A stretch of 37,368 bases of DNA. It comes from Rhodoluna sp. (GTDB lineage: Bacteria > Actinomycetota > Actinomycetes > Actinomycetales > Microbacteriaceae). The notes beneath the pieces were generated by a model that had not been told where the DNA came from, did not search any database, and worked only from the letters and a program-made list of their open reading frames with translations. Shown here piece after piece: positions 28,231 through 29,296 of this stretch. Numbering within the stretch: the stretch's first letter is position 1; each line of letters begins with the position of its first letter. The translations under genes and the position numbers were made by a program. The stretch spans positions 1-37,368 of the forward strand of contig JAURKU010000010.1 in the NCBI GenBank assembly GCA_030831605.1, given 5' to 3'.

Positions 28231-29066
28231 TACTCTTTGTCCTTAACTTCTTCGCTTGCTGCTTCTTCAGCTGGAGTTTCTTCAGCTTTCTCAGCCACCG
28301 GCTCGGCCTTAGCTTGTGCCTGGTCTAGTAATTCCTTCTCCCAGTCAGCAAGAGGCTGAACCTCTTCTGGCTTTGAGTGACGCTTCTTCAAACCCTCTGC
28401 AACTGCATCAGCAATAACTTTGGTTAGCAAGTGAACGGAGCGGATTGCGTCATCGTTACCTGGAATACCAAGGGTGACCTCATCTGGATCACAGTTGGTG
28501 TCCAAAATACCGATTACCGGAATACCAAGCTTCTTGGCTTCGGTAATTGCTAGGTGCTCCTTGATAGTGTCGACTACCCAAATTGCTGAAGGGGTCTTAG
28601 TGACATTACGAACACCGCCAAGAGTCTTTTCAAGCTTGGTCTTCTCGCGAGAAAGAATAAGTAGTTCTTTCTTGGTATAGCCAGATTTCTTGGTGTCCTG
28701 GAAATCCATGGTCTCAAGTTCCTTCAAACGAGCTAGTCGCTTAGAAACGGTTTGGAAGTTAGTTAGTAATCCACCCAACCAACGCTCGTTGATGTATGGC
28801 ATGCCTACGCGCTGCGCTTCGGTAGCGATGGCTTCCTGAGCTTGCTTCTTTGTTCCAACGAACAGTACGCTGCCGCCGGCAGATACGATATCGCGAACGA
28901 ACTCATATGCCTTATCGATGTGGGTGAGTGATTTTTGTAGATCGATGATGTAAATACCTGAACGATCGGTCAGGATGTATCTTTTCATCTTTGGGTTCCA
29001 GCGACGTGTCTGGTGACCAAAGTGAACGCCGTTGTCTAGCAACTGGCGGACTGTTACTACTGCCAT
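28230..29066 (-). CDS. rpsB: 30S ribosomal protein S2
   Basis: 278 aa. [20 protein letters not shown] and [10 protein letters not shown] are classic S2. The track start is 8 codons upstream, but AAGGAGAT sits 6 bases before the ATG at 29066. The last 40 residues are an acidic Ala/Glu-rich extension ([15 protein letters not shown]...) beyond the S2 core. It overlaps tsf by one base, and is preceded by a structured leader of about 195 nt. Confidence 0.98.
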
Positions 29067-29083
29067 GGCAGTATCTCCTTTTT

Positions 29084-29211
29084 GACGCAAAATAACTGCG
29101 TCGGTCAGTTAATGGCTATGAACGGTTGTTCAAAGCCCCTGGTGTCGCAACCGATAAACCCAACAAGTTGGGACCGACTATCGATTGTTGCTCGACACGC
29201 GAAGTCGATAG
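29084..29211 (-). promoter_or_regulatory. Structured rpsB leader RNA, candidate S2 autoregulatory element
   Basis: Within the 283-bp gap, the minus-strand transcript can form five perfect helices: CTATCGA/TCGATAG (29211-29205 with 29184-29178), GTCGGTC/GACCGAC (29178-29172 with 29106-29100), CCCAAC-TT-GTTGGG (29172-29159), CGGTTG/CAACCG (29153-29148 with 29128-29123), and GACGCA/TGCGTC (29102-29097 with 29089-29084). The last ends 5-6 bases before AAGGAGAT and shares GAC with the second helix, so full formation of both is exclusive. S2 leaders are known in bacteria; whether this one matches them was not tested. Confidence 0.55.
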
Positions 29212-29267
29212 GCACGCAAAAACGAAGGTAAATTCCTTGGATTTCTTGCGAACTTATCGCTTCCACA

Positions 29268-29296
29268 ACTATACCAGCCAGCCAAAAGGCTTTCCA
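29268..29296 (-). promoter_or_regulatory. Promoter of rpsB-tsf
   Basis: Minus strand: -35 TGGAAA (29296-29291), 17-base spacer ending TGG, -10 TATAGT (29273-29268). The start near 29261 would include every leader helix described. Confidence 0.55.

Follow-up and report, generated by a model that had tools for sequence, protein, structure and literature searches.

The rpsB-tsf mRNA encoded in the window (the whole 37,368-nt stretch of DNA analysed here) would begin with an S2-responsive leader, an actinobacterial variant of the rpsB/t44 S2 leader with a pseudoknot close to the Shine-Dalgarno (SD) sequence as its control core, a reading to which we assign a probability of about 0.8. The pseudoknot and helix P1, within whose arm its 5′ strand lies, covary strongly among relatives. 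Membership in the S2 leaders is best described as resting on topology and on intermediate sequences rather than on an Rfam match. From the E. coli operator we infer S2 autoregulation of this leader, including S2 binding, repression and the direction of the effect.

Promoter and fold of the rpsB leader

The rpsB gene, encoding S2, lies on the minus strand (28230−29066, ATG at 29066) and is followed by tsf (27403−28230, minus strand), pyrH and frr. Its SD, AGGAG at 29075−29079, was placed from the sequence and the leader comparison. The S2 protein comparison identified a Rhodoluna MAG as the closest named relative, and the collection contains 67 genomes of the genus to which the source genome belongs. 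A divergent ORF of 155 a.a. (29350−29817, plus strand) begins just upstream of the rpsB promoter and, judged by eye, may carry an M23-type peptidase domain.

An earlier, sequence-only reading had proposed the promoter TGGAAA-17-TATAGT for this leader. We found it on the minus strand, with backing from conservation among relatives: the −35 element TGGAAA (29296−29291), inside a conserved GTGGAWAA, is separated by a 17-nt spacer from the −10 TATAGT (29273−29268), which is preceded by TG within the extended −10 TGGTATAGT (29268−29276). The rpsB site was the only promoter-like site in 28900−29900, a match that by itself means little, since shuffles yield 1.3 such sites on average. It gains weight because both elements are conserved in the genus. 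The extended −10 TGNTANNNT occurs upstream of 60/61 genus leaders, compared with 12% in shuffles, and of 33/37 leaders of the wider set, compared with 4%, and GTGGA[ACT]AA occurs in 42/60 genus leaders (0.2% in shuffles), mostly 24−25 nt before the −10. The transcript is predicted to start at about 29261. The conserved GTGGA(A/T)AAC in the −35 region (29297−29290; 42/60 genus loci) also resembles part of the DnaA box TGTGGATAA, and may not be solely a −35 element.

The leader downstream of this promoter is highly structured, as had been claimed. Its fold reaches −70.6 kcal/mol versus −53.1 ± 4.0 kcal/mol in dinucleotide shuffles, none of which was as stable (0/200; z = −4.4), and all of the helices described earlier were found on the minus strand: P0, P1 (GTGTCG/CGACAC), CAATCGATA/TATCGGTTG, CCCAAC/GTTGGG, P4 and P5 (GACGCA/TGCGTC). 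Read 5′ to 3′ on that strand, the transcript 5′ end and P0 occupy 29263−29206 (29259−29255 paired with 29210−29206, with an inner hairpin between them), as placed by the fold and the leader comparison. The P0 of the window is longer than in most of the family; most genus members share an extension of about 30 nt relative to the other family leaders, the distance from the −10 to the conserved GAYUWCGC being mostly 64−71 nt in the genus versus 32−39 nt elsewhere in the family. This conserved element, GACUUCGC here (29206−29199), flanks the P1 5′ strand GUGUCG (29198−29193). The arm continues with the 5′ strand of P2, CAAUCGAUA (29187−29179, from the genus alignment), the pseudoknot 5′ strand GUCGGU in an internal loop (29178−29173, from covariation), the predicted apical hairpin P3, CCCAAC UU GUUGGG (29172−29159), the 3′ strand of P2, UAUCGGUUG (29156−29148, genus alignment), and the P1 3′ strand CGACAC (29147−29142, covariation). 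After P1 come the conserved CAGG (29141−29138, leader comparison), the hairpin P4 (29137−29114), with an AACC loop closed by C-G, the pseudoknot 3′ strand ACUGAC in the conserved register (29109−29104, covariation), and the optional SD-side hairpin P5, GACGCA/UGCGUC (29102−29084, alignment and leader comparison). Since the 5′ strand of the long-range helix sits within the P1 arm, this helix forms a pseudoknot. A pairing of the conserved CUUC with the SD in the minimum-energy fold was dropped, since many relatives carry CUAC.

Covariation of P1 and the pseudoknot

We compared rpsB upstream regions at the levels of the genus, the family, 80 named genomes and a phylum-wide sample. The set comprises 153 distinct actinobacterial rpsB leaders, each of which carries the GAYUWCGC-like anchor by which it was located. 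Their common order is GAYUWCGC, P1, a variable arm, UCRGUCC, the returning arm, P1′, CAGG, usually P4, AACYGA, an optional P5 and the SD, with UCRGU pairing with ACYGA as a pseudoknot that stops a few nucleotides short of the SD. Positions 1, 2, 4, 6, 7 and 8 of GAYUWCGC are invariant, although the search pattern was itself close to this motif, and the A and G of CAGG (positions 67−68) are present in 153/153 leaders; deeper classes and E. coli have GAGG where these leaders have CAGG. Double changes occur at most positions of P1, which is paired in 147−153 of the 153 leaders. P4, with 89% of its cells paired, is missing in some Streptomyces. One pseudoknot pair occurs as GC in 83 leaders, AU in 43 and GU in 27.

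The alignments were made without using the pseudoknot. Among the 50 leaders of the genus alignment, 84% of the cells are paired, rising to 98% for the pseudoknot and 100% for P1, while the apical hairpin P3 and the upper arm align poorly (48% paired in the upper part of P3). The genus alignment contains 296 double-changed cells, compared with 115 in shuffles, and its covariation score is 0.375, compared with 0.168 in shuffles and at most 0.11 in slid versions. On every measure, all 500 shuffles fell short of the real alignment, and the slid versions stayed far below it; shuffles leave relatedness uncontrolled, whereas slides control it. Several pairs occur in three to six standard types, and the outer pseudoknot pair is seen as CG, AU, GU, UG, GC and UA. 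The class-wide alignment likewise has 81 double-changed cells versus 28 in shuffles. Compensatory changes among relatives, the lack of which would have counted against the earlier reading, are therefore numerous.

The leader could instead be a structural or stability element, protecting the mRNA from RNase or serving as a standby site, with no control by S2. The 5′ hairpin P0 and the high fold stability would suit such a role, but the invariant unpaired nucleotides, the SD-linked pseudoknot, the placement always before rpsB and the indirect homology to an operator with an established S2 response all argue against it, and we regard it as improbable.

Pseudoknot registers and the SD-side hairpin

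The sequence-only reading had drawn the long-range helix as GTCGGTC/GACCGAC, mutually exclusive with P5. This helix is present, and its 3′ strand GACCGAC (29106−29100, minus strand) does share GAC (29102−29100) with P5. The same 5′ strand, GUCGGU, also pairs with ACUGAC (29109−29104), 4 nt upstream of GACCGAC, in the conserved register UCRGU/ACYGA, which has no overlap with P5 in this genome. A switch, in which S2 or the state of the ribosome picks one of two exclusive helices, would draw on the real GAC overlap and on a comparable +4 register of seven pairs in a few close relatives only (L081, whose sequence L082 repeats, and L083, L084 and L085, the last two with GATCGAT in place of GACCGAC). 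Against it, the register drawn earlier has no covariation excess (72.8% of cells paired versus 71.9% in shuffles), its outer pair breaks in 40 of the 50 sequences of the genus alignment, and the conserved register requires no opening of P5. In addition, many relatives keep the pseudoknot without P5, which is absent from approximately 4/60 genus leaders, 5/37 of the family set and 35/55 other leaders, including nearly all Streptomyces. A third pairing register was tried and found unsupported.

The two overlapping helices are thus not both conserved, and the mutual exclusion did not hold up. Because the register lacks a covariation excess and P5 is missing in many relatives, the switch would be at most a small-clade feature; as first drawn it is unsupported beyond the closest relatives, and we consider it very unlikely. 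A longer form of the pseudoknot (CCACUCRGU/ACUGAGUGG), seen in about 25 leaders of the genus, would overlap the base of P5 by one or two G, so limited competition at the pseudoknot/P5 boundary is possible within the genus. With P5 left out, the unpaired gap from AACYG to the SD is about 4 to 8 nt in all groups (medians 4, 8 and 8), an approximate value since the pseudoknot and SD were placed by best pattern, biased towards finding the pseudoknot. Such a gap fits a spacer role for P5.

In the S2-responsive leader that we favor, P0 would be followed by the long P1 arm with its variable hairpin cap, and GUCGGU inside the arm would pair back to ACUGAC downstream of P1, which brings the pseudoknot to within a few nucleotides of the SD. 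S2 in excess, aided by S1 in E. coli, would bind the P1-CAGG-pseudoknot core and keep the pseudoknot closed, so that the 30S subunit could not settle on the SD and less S2 and EF-Ts would be made. P4 and P5 would be lineage insertions, with P5 holding the pseudoknot spatially near the SD without itself being the switch. An S2-held pseudoknot that blocks 30S entry would be the simplest reading, and the position of the pseudoknot beside the SD points to a mechanism that can be tested. A different regulator acting on the same RNA family (EF-Ts, or S1 alone), or transcriptional control, appears least probable: tsf does come after rpsB, and S2 in E. coli needs S1 for good repression, but S2 is the repressor of this operator in E. 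coli, and the sense strand showed no terminator or terminator-like site within the leader. A more elaborate proposal, which we consider unlikely although less so than these alternatives, is that the leader belongs to an actinobacterial S2-leader branch of its own, unrecognised by Rfam, whose SD-adjacent pseudoknot lengthens within the genus or slips 4 nt into the base of P5, producing a graded, lineage-specific shut-off.

Relation to known S2 leaders

We searched with a structured model of the Actinomycetes leaders (R2), with the sequence-only model R1 serving as a check. R2 matched 74/80 named loci (E ≤ 0.05), each time immediately before rpsB; some of these are training loci, and the 80 represent the closest S2 proteins, mostly from the class Actinomycetes, and give no phylum prevalence. 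The whole-genome search found R2 in 30/397 genomes, once per matched genome, a count that is not a prevalence because scoring was limited to 8 candidates in each genome.

Leaders from other classes in the phylum-wide sample have the layout CRCACG, P1, CGGUCC or GGUGCC, P1′, GGAGG, AACC and SD. Their pseudoknots include CUUCCGGU/ACCGGAAG, UUAUGGU/ACCAUAA and UAAGGU/ACCUUA, and in several the 3′ strand abuts or overlaps the SD. A model built from 32 deep-class leaders (R3) found 53/80 deep-class loci, training members included, and matched the E. coli S2 operator with 36.4 bits (E = 5e-6, filters off), but gave no significant match to Actinomycetes leaders and did not find that of the window. 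The Actinomycetes model, in turn, matched a deep-class leader, L223 (E 2e-5). By sequence and structure profile, any homology would be indirect, from the Actinomycetes model to L223 and from the deep-class model to E. coli.

Three deep-class leaders of about 60 nt (L254, L263 and L268) have an 8-bp pseudoknot, CUUCCGGU/ACCGGAAG, in which ACCGGAAG enters the SD; these minimal leaders are well suited to structural work. Four leaders of one deep group (L264, L267, L271 and L275), of which R3 finds one only, have layouts that resemble one another but not those above (CACATG..., GGCTGCGG, CAGAGGACTAACGAATGGAG).

The Rfam models t44 and rpsB hit several deep-class leaders in the right place but below the cut-off (best E 3e-5 and 0.007). 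The comparison with Rfam ribosomal leaders that had been suggested for the window left its leader unrecognised, with no match to either model at E ≤ 10, and a search with the window and 14 Actinomycetes loci gave no relevant match. Without a match at the gathering score, which is a database threshold and not a biological feature, the leader cannot be filed as a member of either family, and its link to known leaders runs through intermediates since both the Rfam and the deep-class models miss it. Of the earlier description as an S2 leader of lineage-specific shape, the shape proved specific to the lineage, and regulation by S2 is probable by homology with the E. coli operator.

If correct, a covarying S2 leader present in Streptomyces and Microbacteriaceae as well as in deep classes of Actinobacteria, and linked to that of E. 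coli, would be one of few very old ribosomal leaders, with an actinobacterial branch that the Rfam models miss. Fu et al. (2013) reportedly surveyed such leaders across phyla; the literature we searched, which lacked that study, contained no actinobacterial rpsB leader, and earlier notice is possible. According to PMC8470358, hardly any work has addressed the control of ribosomal proteins in Actinobacteria. The mycobacterial rpsO (S15) leader, also an actinobacterial leader of a ribosomal-protein gene, requires a pseudoknot for control (PMC8470358), but differs in gene, protein and sequence.

The Rfam family RF01815 'rpsB', which we take to be the rpsB motif of Meyer et al., gives no match to the window. 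That motif was reported in Alpha-, Gamma- and a few other Proteobacteria, Cyanobacteria and Firmicutes, and not in Actinobacteria (Meyer et al. 2009, PMC2704228). Its topology, a long P1 with a J2-3 strand that pairs with the 3′ extension after P1, i.e. a pseudoknot (PMC2704228), recurs here in the rpsB 5′ UTR together with the variable cap; a short or absent P2 is allowed in both. The leader of the window differs in the GAYUWCGC and CAGG that flank P1 and in the P4 and P5, insertions that separate P1 from the SD. Autoregulation of rpsB-tsf by S2 is established in E. coli, where S2 in excess acts as the repressor at the operator with the help of S1, and the ribosome binding site lies outside the operator (PMC10931766). 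Like this operator (t44, RF00127), to which the deep-class model leads, the leader has P1 followed by the conserved AGG and AACC (CAGG and AACY here, GGAGG and AACC in the deep classes and E. coli) and a GGU strand pairing with ACC, but E. coli has GAGG and a short linker where the leader of the window has CAGG and hairpin P4.
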